This document shows positions 8,745 to 14,591 of a stretch of DNA of 64,000 bases, in pieces. Both the position numbers and the translations under genes were made by a program. Source of the stretch: Caulobacter sp. (lineage in GTDB: Bacteria > Pseudomonadota > Alphaproteobacteria > Caulobacterales > Caulobacteraceae); assembly GCA_029866155.1 (NCBI GenBank), contig JARWZW010000050.1, positions 1 through 64,000 of the forward strand, given 5' to 3'. Position 1 is the stretch's first letter. Every line of letters begins with the position of its first letter. Below the pieces are notes generated by a model that had not been told where the DNA came from, ran no database searches, and saw only the letters and a list, made by a program, of their open reading frames with translations.

Positions 8745-9211
8745 GCGACGACAGCCACATGCGCGCCGCCGTAGAGGCGGCACGGATCAATCTTGGCCTG
8801 ACCTCGCCAAATCCGGTGGTCGGCTGCGTTTTGGTGCGAGATGGAAAGATCGTCGGCAAGGCCGCCACCGCAGCCGGCGGACGCCCCCATGCCGAGGACC
8901 AGGCCCTGGTCCAGGCCGGCAGCCTGGCGCGCGGGGCCACGGCCTACGTCACCCTCGAGCCCTGCGGCGCCCGGTCGTCCGGCGGCGTCGCCTGCGCCGA
9001 CCTGCTGATTGCAGCGGGTGTCGTCAGGGTGGTGGTGGCCTGTGAAGACCCTTCCCCCTTTGCGTCCGGGCGCGGTTCGGAGCGGCTGACCGCAGCCGGA
9101 ATTGTGGTCGAGACCGGTCTTCTTTCCGGCTGGGTTCTCGACAGCCTCGATTATTGGGCCTGGTTCCGAAGCCAGTCATTGGCCATGCCGCAGCGGACCG
9201 ATCGCACGTAA
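8741..9211 (+). CDS. stand-alone RibD-type deaminase domain protein
   Basis: INLGLTSPNPVVGCVLVRDG, RPHAEDQAL, PCGARSSGGVACADLL zinc-site motifs; no reductase domain; TTG at 8741 or ATG at 8759. Confidence 0.8.
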   Translation: MSDDSHMRAAVEAARINLGLTSPNPVVGCVLVRDGKIVGKAATAAGGRPHAEDQALVQAGSLARGATAYVTLEPCGARSSGGVACADLLIAAGVVRVVVACEDPSPFASGRGSERLTAAGIVVETGLLSGWVLDSLDYWAWFRSQSLAMPQRTDRT

Positions 9212-9263
9212 GCGGAAGATTAAGCATATTGCGTCTAGGCTTCGGATCGAAGGAGCCCTGCGC

Positions 9264-10523
9264 ATGACCGCCGCGCCCTCGTCGACCACTCGACGGCTGA
9301 CACAGCAGGATGTCGATCTGATCTGCGCCCGCCATGATCGCCTTTGGTCTGGCCGGGGCGGCGGGGCTCGCGCTGTCTTCAGTTTCTGCGACATGACCGG
9401 CCTGAGCCTGAGGGGGCGGAACCTCTGCGACGCGGACTTCGCCGGCGCGGCCATGGCCGGGACCAATCTTTCCGGCGCCCGTTTCGACAATTCCAGCTTC
9501 TTTGGAGCCGATCTCCAGGACGCCAACCTGACCGAAGCGTCCCTGCGGCGGGCCGATCTGCGGGGTTCCTGCCTGCGCGGCGCCAACCTTTCCGGGGCGG
9601 ACCTGTTCGAGGCCGACCTTCGCGAAGGCACCTTGGCCGCCGCCGATGCTTTGAAGGGTTTTCGCGTCCTGGAGCACAAGGCGCGGACCGGGGATGTTCG
9701 CGGCGCAAACCTTTCGGGGGCGAACCTGGAGCGATCGCGACTGTCGGGGATTGTGGCGGTCAAGGCCGACTTCACCGACGCGATCCTCAAGGACGCCAAG
9801 CTGGTTCGGGCCAACCTGAAACAGGCCTGCATGAGCGGGGCCAATCTCGCCGGGGCGGATCTGTCAGGCGCTGATCTGTCCGGCGCCGATCTATCGGACG
9901 CCATACTGGTCGGAGCCAAGATTTTTGCCTGGAATGTCTCCGACGCCAATATGAAGGGCGTCCTTACCGATCGTCCGTCAGGCACGGCCGTCGCCGGACT
10001 GCCCTTCGACGACATGATCCGCTCTCACGCCCAGTGGTGCGAGACCGGAGGGGCGGAAGGTCGGCCTTCAAGCTTCGACGGCGCCGACCTTCGCGCCCTG
10101 GGCAGCCTGAAGGGTCTCAACCTGACGGCTCTCTCCGCCAAGCGGGCGACCTTTTACGGGCTCGACCTGCAGGGGGTGCAGTTTCAGGGTGCTCAGCTGG
10201 AGGGCGCCGACCTCCGCGCCTGCAATCTCCGCCATGCCGACCTGCGAGGCGCCCGCCTGATCGGGGCCCGGCTGACCGGATCTGACCTGCGGGACGTACA
10301 GATGGGCCCCCTGCTGCTAGCGGCCGACCGGTTGTTGCCCTGTGATCTGACGGGGGCGATCCTGAAGGGGGCCGAGATGGCCGGGGCCGATTTCCGGCAG
10401 GCGGTGTTCAGGGGCGCCGATCTTTCGCGGGCCAACCTGACCGGGGCCCAGATGAGGGGGGCAGACCTGACGGGCGCGGTCCTCTTGGGGACTCGCGGCC
10501 TAGACTGGTCCAGAGCGGGCTAG
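9264..10523 (+). CDS. pentapeptide-repeat protein (two-module)
   Basis: Many A(D/N)LxG repeats (ADLSGADLSGADLSDA); two H-x-x-x-W...GG..G modules; ATG at 9264. Confidence 0.92.
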   Translation: MTAAPSSTTRRLTQQDVDLICARHDRLWSGRGGGARAVFSFCDMTGLSLRGRNLCDADFAGAAMAGTNLSGARFDNSSFFGADLQDANLTEASLRRADLRGSCLRGANLSGADLFEADLREGTLAAADALKGFRVLEHKARTGDVRGANLSGANLERSRLSGIVAVKADFTDAILKDAKLVRANLKQACMSGANLAGADLSGADLSGADLSDAILVGAKIFAWNVSDANMKGVLTDRPSGTAVAGLPFDDMIRSHAQWCETGGAEGRPSSFDGADLRALGSLKGLNLTALSAKRATFYGLDLQGVQFQGAQLEGADLRACNLRHADLRGARLIGARLTGSDLRDVQMGPLLLAADRLLPCDLTGAILKGAEMAGADFRQAVFRGADLSRANLTGAQMRGADLTGAVLLGTRGLDWSRAG

Positions 10524-10756: not shown

Positions 10757-12013
10757 TTGCAGCTTGTTTCCAACTCTTTGGCCGGTCGTCGTCGCATCAG
10801 TCAGAGCGAGCTTGACCTGCTTGTTTCGGCGCATGAGCGGTTTCTCAGCGGTCGCTCCGGTGGCAAGCGGGCGAGCCTGCGATTCATGGATATGAGCGGA
10901 CTTGAACTTTCGGGCCGAAATCTCTGCGATGCTGACCTCTCGGCTTCTGTGCTGGACGGAGCGCGGATGCTGCGGACCCGGCTCGACCGCGCAAGCCTGT
11001 TCGGCTCCGATCTTCGAAAAGCGGTGATGATCCAGGCCAGCCTGGTGCGGGCGGACCTGCGCGGCGTCTGCCTCCATGGCGCCAATCTCACCCAGGCTGA
11101 CCTGACCCAGGCCGATTTCCGTGAGGGCCAGATCGCGATCCCCCATCCGCGCAAGGGGCTGGACAGCCTCAAGCATGAGGACAGGGCAGGGGACGCCGAT
11201 GGCGCGCTTTTCGTCGGTGCGACCCTGGACGGCTCGCGCATGAACGGCCTGTCCGCCTTCGCCTCGGATTTCACCGACTGTTCCCTTCGGGGGGCTGTGA
11301 TGACCGGAGCCAATCTCAAGGAAGCCAACATGGCCGGCGCCAATCTGGAAGGCGCCCAGGTGTCCGGCTGCAATCTGGAAGGCGCTGACCTGTCAGGGGC
11401 TGTGCTTTCCGGGGTGGAGGTCGGCCTCGCCCGGACGAGCGGGTGTCGTATGGCCGGCGTCCTGTTGTCGCCGACAGCAGAGGAGCTGGCCCTGGCGCCC
11501 CAACGCCTGGAAGCCGCCATGGGCAATCAGGCCTGGTGCGAAAGCGGTGGCCAGCGCGGCGCACCGGCACGGCTGGACCATGCCGATCTTCGCACCCTCG
11601 GTGGACGCCTGAGAGGCATGCGGCTGACGGCCATTTCGGCCAAGGGCGCCTGCATGGTCGGAATGGATCTATCGGGGGTTCAGCTGCAGGGCGCAAACCT
11701 GGACGGCGCTGATCTGAGGGGCGCCGACCTGCACGGGGCCGATCTGCGGGGCGCCAAGCTGGCCGGCGCCAATCTGACCAAGGCTGACCTGCGCGGCGCC
11801 ATGGTCGGGGTTCTGCCCCTCACGCCGGAACGGTCGAGTCCGGCGACGCTCAATCTGGCGCGGATGCGTTATACCCGGGCCCAGGCGGCCGACCTGTCTG
11901 CGGCGATCCTGGACGGCGCCGATCTGAGGGGAGCGGACCTCACCGGCGCCAAGGTCGTCCGCACCAGCTTCCGCGACGCCGACATCGGTTCGGCGATCGG
12001 ACTGGAAACCTGA
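10757..12013 (+). CDS. pentapeptide-repeat protein, paralogue of preceding gene
   Basis: Same architecture as 9264..10523; predicted TTG start; repeats such as GADLRGADLHGADLRGAKLAGANL. Confidence 0.9.
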   Translation: MQLVSNSLAGRRRISQSELDLLVSAHERFLSGRSGGKRASLRFMDMSGLELSGRNLCDADLSASVLDGARMLRTRLDRASLFGSDLRKAVMIQASLVRADLRGVCLHGANLTQADLTQADFREGQIAIPHPRKGLDSLKHEDRAGDADGALFVGATLDGSRMNGLSAFASDFTDCSLRGAVMTGANLKEANMAGANLEGAQVSGCNLEGADLSGAVLSGVEVGLARTSGCRMAGVLLSPTAEELALAPQRLEAAMGNQAWCESGGQRGAPARLDHADLRTLGGRLRGMRLTAISAKGACMVGMDLSGVQLQGANLDGADLRGADLHGADLRGAKLAGANLTKADLRGAMVGVLPLTPERSSPATLNLARMRYTRAQAADLSAAILDGADLRGADLTGAKVVRTSFRDADIGSAIGLET

Positions 12014-12076: not shown

Positions 12077-12535
12077 TCAGGCCGCCTTCTCACCATCGAT
12101 CAGCGCGCTTTCTGCTGGGGCGCCGATCTTGATCGTCCGGGGCTTGAGCGCTTCGGGCAGTTCCCGTTTCAGGCTGATGGCCAGGAGACCATCCGCCAAG
12201 GTCGCGTCATTCACCACAACATAGTCGGCCAACTGGAACCGGCGCTCGAAGTTGCGCTCGGCGAGGCCGCGGTGGAGAAACTTGCGGGAATCATCATTGG
12301 CCGGCTTGCGCCCCTGAACGGCGAGGAGGTTTTCCTTCACCTCGATGGTCAGTTCGTCGGGCCGAAAGCCAGCGACCGCGATTTCGACTCGGTAGGAGTC
12401 TTCTCCGGTCCGTTCAATATTGTAGGGCGGGTAGCCGGTTGCGCCATCCTGGGCGGCGGCTGCGTCGAGCAGCGAGGCCAAGCGGTCGAAACCGACCACG
12501 GAGCGGTACAGCGGGGAGAAATCGATCGTACGCAT
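12077..12535 (-). CDS. small heat shock protein, Hsp20/IbpA family
   Basis: MRTIDFSPLYRSVVGFDRLASLLD...YPPYNIERTGEDSYRVEIAVAGF; ATG 12535 preferred over 12547, which overlaps the Shine-Dalgarno. Confidence 0.95.
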   Translation of the reverse strand: MRTIDFSPLYRSVVGFDRLASLLDAAAAQDGATGYPPYNIERTGEDSYRVEIAVAGFRPDELTIEVKENLLAVQGRKPANDDSRKFLHRGLAERNFERRFQLADYVVVNDATLADGLLAISLKRELPEALKPRTIKIGAPAESALIDGEKAA

Positions 12536-12542
12536 GTTTGGT

Positions 12543-12640
12543 AACATCCTTCTTGGTCAAGCAAGGTTGCATCACACAGGACTGACGAACCGGTCTGGCT
12601 TCGCCAACTGTCCTCAAGGCCCGATAGCGGCGCCTCGGGA
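12543..12640 (-). promoter_or_regulatory. candidate ROSE-like RNA thermometer in hsp20 5'UTR
   Basis: Minus strand GCAACCUUGCUU-gacc-AAGAAGGAUGU: SD (AAGAAGG) paired with CCUU[G]CUU leaving a bulged G in a UUGCU motif; upstream hairpins GUCCCGAGGC...GCCUUGAGGAC and UGGCgaaGCCA. Confidence 0.65.
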
Positions 12641-12644
12641 CAAC

Positions 12645-12672
12645 AGTTGGGAATGAGTTTACCGATTTCAAG
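12645..12672 (-). promoter_or_regulatory. possible sigma-32 promoter for hsp20
   Basis: Minus strand CTTG-N17-CCCAACT, partial fit to alphaproteobacterial RpoH consensus CTTG-N17/18-CYTATNT. Confidence 0.35.
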
Positions 12673-12756
12673 TGACGGGCTCCGGTCAGCTTGCCTGTTT
12701 GCACAAGGCCTGGCCTGAGCTATTTCATGTTGAACAGTTCAAGGAGTTTCGCCCCC

Positions 12757-13605
12757 ATGATGCGTCGGTCTGTTCTGGCCCTGGTCAGCTTGTTGGCATT
12801 TTCGTACGGCACAGCGGCCTCGGCGGCGCCCCGAGTGGACGCGGCCTTGAAGGCAGCGATCGAAGGGCAGCAGAGGAGCGAGGCCCACAGGCTTCGCGAC
12901 CCAGCTCGCCATCCTTATGACAGCCTGACCTTCTGGGGACTGCGCCCGGGACTGTCGGTCATCGAGGTCAGCCCGGGCACAGGATACTGGACTGAAATCC
13001 TGGCGCCCTACGCCAAGGCCACCGGCGGCGCCTACGCCGCCGGAGTCGCGGATCTGGACAATCCCGCTCTTTCCGAGGGCGCCCGCAAGGGTCGCGCCGC
13101 CCTAGAGGCCAGATATGCCGACGCCTCCCTGTTCGGGACCGTGCGCTATGCCAATTTCGGACCGAAGTCTGCGGCCCTGGGCCTGCCAGGCTCCGCCGAC
13201 CTGGTTCTGACCGCCCGCAACATCCACAACTGGCTGTCGCCGCAGGGTCATCTGGACAAGGTCATGACGGACTTTTTCCAGGTCCTCAAGCCAGGCGGCG
13301 TGCTGGCGGTGGAGGAACACCGCGCTGACCCCAGGCCCCAGGCGGCCGGCGCCTCAGACGGCTACATGTCCACCGCCTTTGTGGTCGCGGCCGCCGAAAA
13401 GGCTGGTTTCAAGCTGGCGGCGACTAGCGAGATCAACGCCAACAAGCGTGACACCAAGGACCATCCGTTCGGGGTCTGGACCCTTCCGCCTGTCAAGCGG
13501 TCTGCGCCAGCGGGCCAACCGGCAGATCCAGCGTTTGACCGCTCAGCCTATGACGCCATCGGTGAGAGCGACAGAATGACCCTGCGCTTCGTCAAGCCAA
13601 AGTGA
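12757..13605 (+). CDS. exported COG4798-type predicted methyltransferase
   Basis: Signal peptide MMRRSVLALVSLLAFSYGTAASAA; RHPYDSLTFWGLRPGLSVIEVSPGTGYWTEILAPY; AAGGAG upstream of ATG 12757. Confidence 0.85.
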   Translation: MMRRSVLALVSLLAFSYGTAASAAPRVDAALKAAIEGQQRSEAHRLRDPARHPYDSLTFWGLRPGLSVIEVSPGTGYWTEILAPYAKATGGAYAAGVADLDNPALSEGARKGRAALEARYADASLFGTVRYANFGPKSAALGLPGSADLVLTARNIHNWLSPQGHLDKVMTDFFQVLKPGGVLAVEEHRADPRPQAAGASDGYMSTAFVVAAAEKAGFKLAATSEINANKRDTKDHPFGVWTLPPVKRSAPAGQPADPAFDRSAYDAIGESDRMTLRFVKPK

Positions 13606-13688
13606 GCGTGGAGCTTTTGACCTGAGGCGATGGCCAAGGTATGCCGCTGGACGAGCGGGCCGCGGGGGCGACCAGAGTGACGGATTTC

Positions 13689-14591
13689 ATGGCGTCAAGT
13701 TTTTCCGTCTCTTCCCGCAGGAACCTTTTGATCGGTCTGGGCGCCGTGGCCGGCCTGGCGGCCTGCAAGGAAAAGCCGGCCGCCTCCGGAGCCATTTCGC
13801 TCGACAAGACCGGCCCGGTCGACGCTCGCAAGATTGTCACCATCGCGGACGCTGTCGCCGGCGAATGGCGGTCGCCGGCTGACCGGGCGCGTGATGTCCA
13901 TCGCCATCCGCTCGAGAGCCTGACCTTCTGGGGGCTCAAGCCAGGCATGACGGTGGTGGAATTCTGGCCTGGGGCAGGCTGGTTCACCGATATCCTTGCC
14001 CCCTATCTGGATGCGACCAATGGACGGCTCTATGCCGCCAATCTCCAGCCCCTGGACCCGGCTGTCAGTGAAGTCGTCCAAGCCTACCGCCGCAAGCTCA
14101 AGGACAATGCCCGCCTCTATGGAGACGCCCAGGTCACGGCCTTCGGGCCGACGAGCGGCCCGGTTGCGCCGCCCGGGTCTGCTGACCTGGTGCTCTTCCT
14201 TCGCAACCTCCATAACTGGATCGCGGCAGGGATCGCAGACAAGGCCTTCAAGGATGCCTATGCCGCACTCAAGCCCGGCGGCATCCTGGGAATCGAAGAG
14301 CACCGTGGCCTGCCCGGCGCGGTCCAGGACCCGCTGGCGGCCGACGGCTATGTCCAGCAGGACTACGCGATACAGCTTGCCAAGGAGGCCGGATTTTCGC
14401 TGGAATCGACCAGTGAAATCAACGCCAATCCCAAGGATGACCGGAAGCACCCTTTTGGCGTATGGACCTTGTCGCCAACCCGCCTTTCAGCGCCCCGTGG
14501 GCAGCCGCCAAAGGCGGGCTTTAATCACGCCGAGTATGACGCTGTGGGAGAAAGCGATCGGATGACCCTGAAACTGGTAAAGCCGAAATGA
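13689..14591 (+). CDS. lipoprotein-like COG4798-type predicted methyltransferase, paralogue of preceding gene
   Basis: SSRRNLLIGLGAVAGLAACKEKP (twin Arg plus lipobox LAAC); RHPLESLTFWGLKPGMTVVEFWPGAGWFTDILAPY. Confidence 0.85.
   Translation: MASSFSVSSRRNLLIGLGAVAGLAACKEKPAASGAISLDKTGPVDARKIVTIADAVAGEWRSPADRARDVHRHPLESLTFWGLKPGMTVVEFWPGAGWFTDILAPYLDATNGRLYAANLQPLDPAVSEVVQAYRRKLKDNARLYGDAQVTAFGPTSGPVAPPGSADLVLFLRNLHNWIAAGIADKAFKDAYAALKPGGILGIEEHRGLPGAVQDPLAADGYVQQDYAIQLAKEAGFSLESTSEINANPKDDRKHPFGVWTLSPTRLSAPRGQPPKAGFNHAEYDAVGESDRMTLKLVKPK

Follow-up and report, generated by a model that had tools for sequence, protein, structure and literature searches.

Organization of the hsp20 locus

The stretch of DNA analysed here (the window, 64,000 nucleotides) carries on its minus strand the gene of an IbpA-type small heat-shock protein of 152 amino acids, hsp20 (12077–12535). 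The assignment is based on profile matches: the product matches PF00011 at 2.7e-18 and scores 161.6 bits against the NCBIfam IbpA model, under the 212 cut-off of the latter. Read 5′ to 3′ along the minus strand from 12672 to 12533, the sequence presents a sigma32-like promoter, three hairpins (I, II and III), the ATG at 12535–12533 and then the IbpA-type hsp20 reading frame. Two adjacent genes for long pentapeptide-repeat proteins are found on the plus strand of the window at 9102–10523 and 10757–12013, the second recognized by Pfam and the first judged from its own repeats. Divergent from hsp20 lie two similar, adjacent plus-strand reading frames, 12691–13605 and 13641–14591, the former of which has only sub-threshold matches to methyltransferase families of Pfam.

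The start codon had been annotated as the ATG at 12547, which overlaps the Shine-Dalgarno (SD) sequence. The earlier note preferred the ATG at 12535, and the leaders of relatives bear out this choice. Among 80 distinct leaders, the equivalent of ATG 12547 is followed by a stop codon in 31, lies out of frame in nine and is open in frame in four, with no ATG at all in the other 36, and the peptide MRT.DFSPLYRS read from 12535 is conserved among relatives. Judged from these comparisons, the true start of hsp20 is ATG 12535, and the start codon of the gene is corrected accordingly. In the first of these groups the SD overlaps an AUG with an immediate stop (AAGGAUGUGA), which places a start-stop pair just 5′ of the real start; this pair may merely mirror the pairing of the outer stem.

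A putative sigma32-type promoter is formed by the −35 element CTTGAA (12667–12672, minus strand) and the −10 element CCCAAC (12646–12651), separated by a spacer of 15 nt. The sigma32 consensus is CTTGAAA-CCCCAT. The sequence CTTGA[AC] occurs 125–180 nt 5′ of the start codon, mostly at 136–147, in 79 of the 80 distinct leaders, and CTTGAA(N)CCCA/ACCA pairs are aligned in relatives. Because this sigma32-like promoter is conserved, transcription is expected to begin near 12638, 5′ of the three hairpins, and the leader would then measure about 100 nt. As far as sequence tells, the transcript would therefore not begin downstream of 12570, a finding that the earlier note had said would refute its proposal.

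Architecture of the leader

The three-hairpin element spans 12637–12544 of the minus strand, and the multi-hairpin ROSE layout proposed previously is recovered by both folding and covariation. All three hairpins appear in the predicted folds of 12640–12505 at 25 °C and of 12640–12533 at 37 °C, while moving the 5′ end out to 12672 yields a different predicted fold. The two upstream hairpins of the earlier note both exist, with helices that had to be revised. Hairpin I (12615–12637), identified by folding and covariation, is CGAGGC.CCG(CUAU)CGGGCCUUG, and the GUCC/GGAC extension once drawn for it is not conserved. Hairpin II (12583–12606), identified in the same manner, is best represented as UGGCGAA[G]CC(AGACC)GGUUCGUCA rather than as UGGCgaaGCCA, because it is the helix with the GGUUCGUCA arm that covaries.

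Hairpin III, the sensor hairpin (12544–12570), takes the form GCA-A-CCUU[G]CUU(GACC)AAGAAGG-A-UGU and is supported by folding as well as by the leaders of relatives and of distant hsp20 genes. The minus-strand sequence from 12571 to 12540 (UGCAACCUUGCUUGACCAAGAAGGAUGUUACC) folds at 37 °C as.(((.((((.(((....))))))).)))...., at −6.0 kcal/mol, with G12562 bulged and A12567 and A12547 unpaired. The SD, AAGAAGGA, occupies 12547–12554. Sequence and folding agree with the original observation that AAGAAGG is paired by CCUU[G]CUU in a hairpin with a 4-nt loop, leaving a single bulged G (G12562) within a UUGCU motif (12564–12560). With this G deleted in silico, the energy of hairpin III at 37 °C falls from −6.0 to −9.8 kcal/mol, a computed gain in stability of about 3.8 kcal/mol and a change in the direction that a role of the bulge in tuning melting would predict. 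The energy of the intact hairpin lies inside the range of −4.1 to −7.6 kcal/mol given for working ROSE hairpins of Pseudomonas (PMC3669281).

The statistics of the single sequence are modest when taken alone. Against dinucleotide shuffles, the fold of 12640–12533 has a z-score of −1.8, and the combination of UYGCU, SD and ATG with at least two outer pairs is found once on the two strands of the 64-kb window, where about 1.2 occurrences are expected from a first-order Markov control. With roughly one occurrence per window expected by chance, the bare motif was rejected as evidence; since it is not rare alone, what counts is its position on the hsp20 ribosome-binding site together with its conservation. 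The pattern CCTTGCTTN{2,8}AAGAAGG has one match in the 3.5-Mb genome, located here, and the backwards pattern also has one. The weak z-score and the expected motif count are what might recommend chance as the origin of the complementarity between the SD and the upstream strand. This origin is refuted by the conservation and covariation observed across the family and beyond, and its probability is practically negligible.

Conservation and covariation

Of the 61 genomes of the genus searched at the DNA level, 60 matched the leader and start region. A search of named genomes placed the closest hosts in Phenylobacterium and Caulobacter, with homologous hsp20 genes reaching Bradyrhizobium, Hyphomonas, Aeromonas and Vibrio. 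The covariation check suggested in the earlier note gave a strong signal. It was made on an alignment of 60 distinct leaders, in which 26 pairs were counted explicitly because RNAalifold left hairpin III unpaired, probably owing to variable loop length and to a shift of the SD by MAFFT. Overall, 95.1% of cells are paired and two-sided changes are seen in 10 pairs (61 cells), against shuffled means of 91.1%, 5.4 pairs and 20.4 cells, and none of 500 shuffles was as high. Sliding the partner by 1–3 columns lowers pairing to 34–55%. Of the ten pairs that changed on both sides, nine belong to hairpins I and II: the helix of hairpin I has 99.8% of its cells paired and such changes in three pairs, and that of hairpin II has them in six of eight. 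Four leaders (L068, L071, L072 and L083) are off by one column in the alignment, which lowers the figures for the helix of hairpin III.

The sequence of hairpin I is conserved beyond its pairing (CGAAGGCGCUGG..CCGGGCCUUC), as might be seen if the conserved sequence were a DNA or RNA site for a regulator protein, or for pairing with a small RNA, and the pairing of the SD were secondary. For the ROSE element of Bradyrhizobium the same case was once made and was superseded by the RNA explanation (PMC4166951). Moreover, the covariation of hairpins I and II argues for RNA structure, and the site hypothesis is considered very unlikely.

Hairpin III is nearly invariant within the genus, as one would expect where an SD is involved, and changes between genera, so that its covariation rests on the more distant genera. 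Its arms are CCUUGCUU/AAGAAGG here, CCUUGCUGA/UCAGGAGG in a sister genus and CCUCGCUU/AAGGAGG in a further family belonging to the same order. Every one of the 145 hsp20 leaders compared from alpha- and gammaproteobacteria, a set that includes some species twice, has U(U/C)GCU opposite the SD. The second pyrimidine of the motif and its partner form U-A in 76 of these leaders, U-G in 28, C-G in 41 and C-A in none; the corresponding Fisher value of 7e-18 is not a true probability, since the partner was selected to maximize pairing and the leaders share ancestry.

R1, a covariance model derived from the leader alignment, scores 88.3 bits at this site in its own genome, and the runner-up there, at 21.5 bits, was set aside, as it showed no start-codon context resembling that of the hsp20 leader. 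When R1 was run on 120 genomes of the order, 25 members of the family each had a single match, at 41–122 bits, with scores of 41–52 bits in genera outside the alignment, including a sister genus. Seventeen of the 20 newly retrieved matches lie directly 5′ of an hsp20 start codon. For one (L203) the automatic choice of start took another frame, and the ATGCGAACC start is visible. The weak matches L216–L218 (E near 1e-3) are not 5′ of hsp20 and were discarded.

Proposed mechanism of thermal control

Together, these data make it very probable that the 5′ leader of hsp20 is a three-hairpin RNA thermometer of the ROSE type. On heat shock, RpoH (sigma32) would transcribe hsp20 from the promoter at 12672–12646, as its sequence and conservation suggest. 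Hairpins I and II would be stably folded at growth temperature, and hairpin III would pair the SD with the UUGCU strand, a pairing to which both comparison and folding point, and binding of the 30S subunit would be blocked. By homology to ROSE elements for which this mode of action has been demonstrated, the bulged G may leave hairpin III only marginally stable, such that it would open at heat-shock temperature and the chaperone could be translated at once. Heat would then control the gene at two levels, transcription by way of RpoH and translation by way of the RNA.

The hsp20 leader is predicted to close its own SD at 25 °C. The computed unpaired fraction of the SD at this temperature is 0.04, compared with 0.55 behind a shuffled leader, and across 24 leaders the mean is 0.12, compared with 0.41 behind shuffled leaders. 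Between 25 and 42 °C the computed value for the window leader rises from 0.04 to 0.13, a change of the right direction and of small size. So slight an opening would also suit hairpins that are real and yet stabilize the mRNA or put a fixed brake on translation, with heat induction left to the RpoH promoter alone. The conserved sigma32-type promoter is in keeping with such a role, as is the proposal that the 5′ hairpins of Pseudomonas elements are stabilizing (PMC3669281). However, the bulged G in U(U/C)GCU, present in 145 of 145 leaders, is a destabilizing feature that would be useless to a fixed brake, given the approximately 3.8 kcal/mol that its removal would add. A brake or stabilizer indifferent to temperature is therefore held to be improbable, and the ROSE-type thermometer is preferred.

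Relationship to known RNA thermometers

The leader shows the U(U/C)GCU motif with a bulged G opposite the SD by which ROSE elements are defined (PMC3669281). Likewise typical of the class, it has between two and four hairpins (three) with the SD in the 3′ one, and it precedes a small heat-shock gene of PF00011. The Infernal search proposed in the earlier note gives a divided answer. RF00435 (ROSE) is the best of 4227 Rfam families at the exact site and is matched over its full length (model 1–94 of 94), but at 19.8 bits it falls below the gathering cut-off of 45 bits (E 1.5 over the 4227 families, or about 4e-4 for one family by simple division). At gathering cut-offs, Rfam yields no match in the window or in the hsp20 loci of 20 relatives, and RF00435 run against the whole genome gives none at E ≤ 10, the score being too low for so much sequence. 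The hsp20 leaders of Bradyrhizobium, Hyphomonas and Aeromonas with UYGCU hairpins likewise fail this cut-off. The RF00435 model is narrow: conserved elements of an entire bacterial family escape this standard ROSE model, and the covarying alignment of 60 sequences is a basis for a better one. Since it has the features of ROSE and fails the RF00435 cut-off, the leader is classed as ROSE-type rather than as a member of RF00435. It resembles the rhizobial ROSE1 type described by this family in preceding a small heat-shock gene with several hairpins, the last of which uses UUGCU with a bulged G to mask the SD. It differs in the SD strand, which is of the GGAGGA type there, whereas here AAGAAGG pairs with CCUU[G]CUU.

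The short ROSE-like thermometers of Pseudomonas ibpA (PMC3669281) share U(U/C)GCU opposite the SD, a stable 5′ hairpin, a sigma32 promoter and a similar hairpin energy, and comprise two hairpins, compared with three here. A bulged G opposite the SD is also common to ROSE-G (PMC12857270), which is distinguished by CUGCU, opposing bulged Gs and an association with ABC transporter genes; the present element has UUGCU, a single bulge with no bulged G in the core of the SD strand, and hsp20. In fourU thermometers the SD is likewise masked by a short hairpin, whereas the CCUU[G]CUU strand lacks four consecutive U residues.

Predictions made in 2005 put the number of ROSE elements in alpha- and gammaproteobacteria at more than 40 (PMC4166951). 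Those of Caulobacter crescentus and other members of these classes are credited to Waldminghaus et al. 2005, as cited in PMC3669281 and PMC4166951, and PMC3669281 lists C. crescentus among organisms with ROSE elements of three to four hairpins. The C. crescentus element, as described there, belongs to the same bacterial family and may be an orthologue of the hsp20 leader, in which case there is possibly no difference between them; a C. vibrioides genome (L077) does carry an orthologous hsp20 leader. Among the papers searched, none linked Phenylobacterium with an RNA thermometer. The hsp20 leader is thus a genuine, ordinary and uncatalogued ROSE-type element of a kind already reported for C. 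crescentus (PMC3669281), and it leaves the understanding of RNA thermometers unchanged.

Other hsp20 leaders in the family

A second hsp20 gene in the same genome (L150/L165, ATG L150:1378) has a ROSE-like SD hairpin, GAGUC[G]CUU..AAGGACUC, within about 45 nt of its start, with a rather long spacing between SD and start. The hairpin is matched by 26 of 30 retrieved homologues, with compensatory arms GAGUC/GACUC, GAAGUC/GACUUC and GAGUC/GGCUC, and Rfam makes no call on it even at E 10. In 18 of the 75 genomes of the genus (L153–L161, L164), a third type of hsp20 (MST.FDF.PLY), absent from the genome of the window, bears a classical ROSE element that passes the Rfam threshold.

A broader reading, offered tentatively and with somewhat less than even confidence, is that Caulobacteraceae possess a distinct ROSE subclass invisible to Rfam, marked by CCUUGCUU/AAGAAGG and a near-invariant hairpin I, and that all of their small heat-shock genes are under at most three separately diverged ROSE types. 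These would be CCUUGCUU/AAGAAGG, GAGUCGCUU/AAGGACUC at the second hsp20 and the classical RF00435 type at the third. If true, up to three ROSE types would constitute natural sets of thermometers in one cell, possibly with different switching temperatures.
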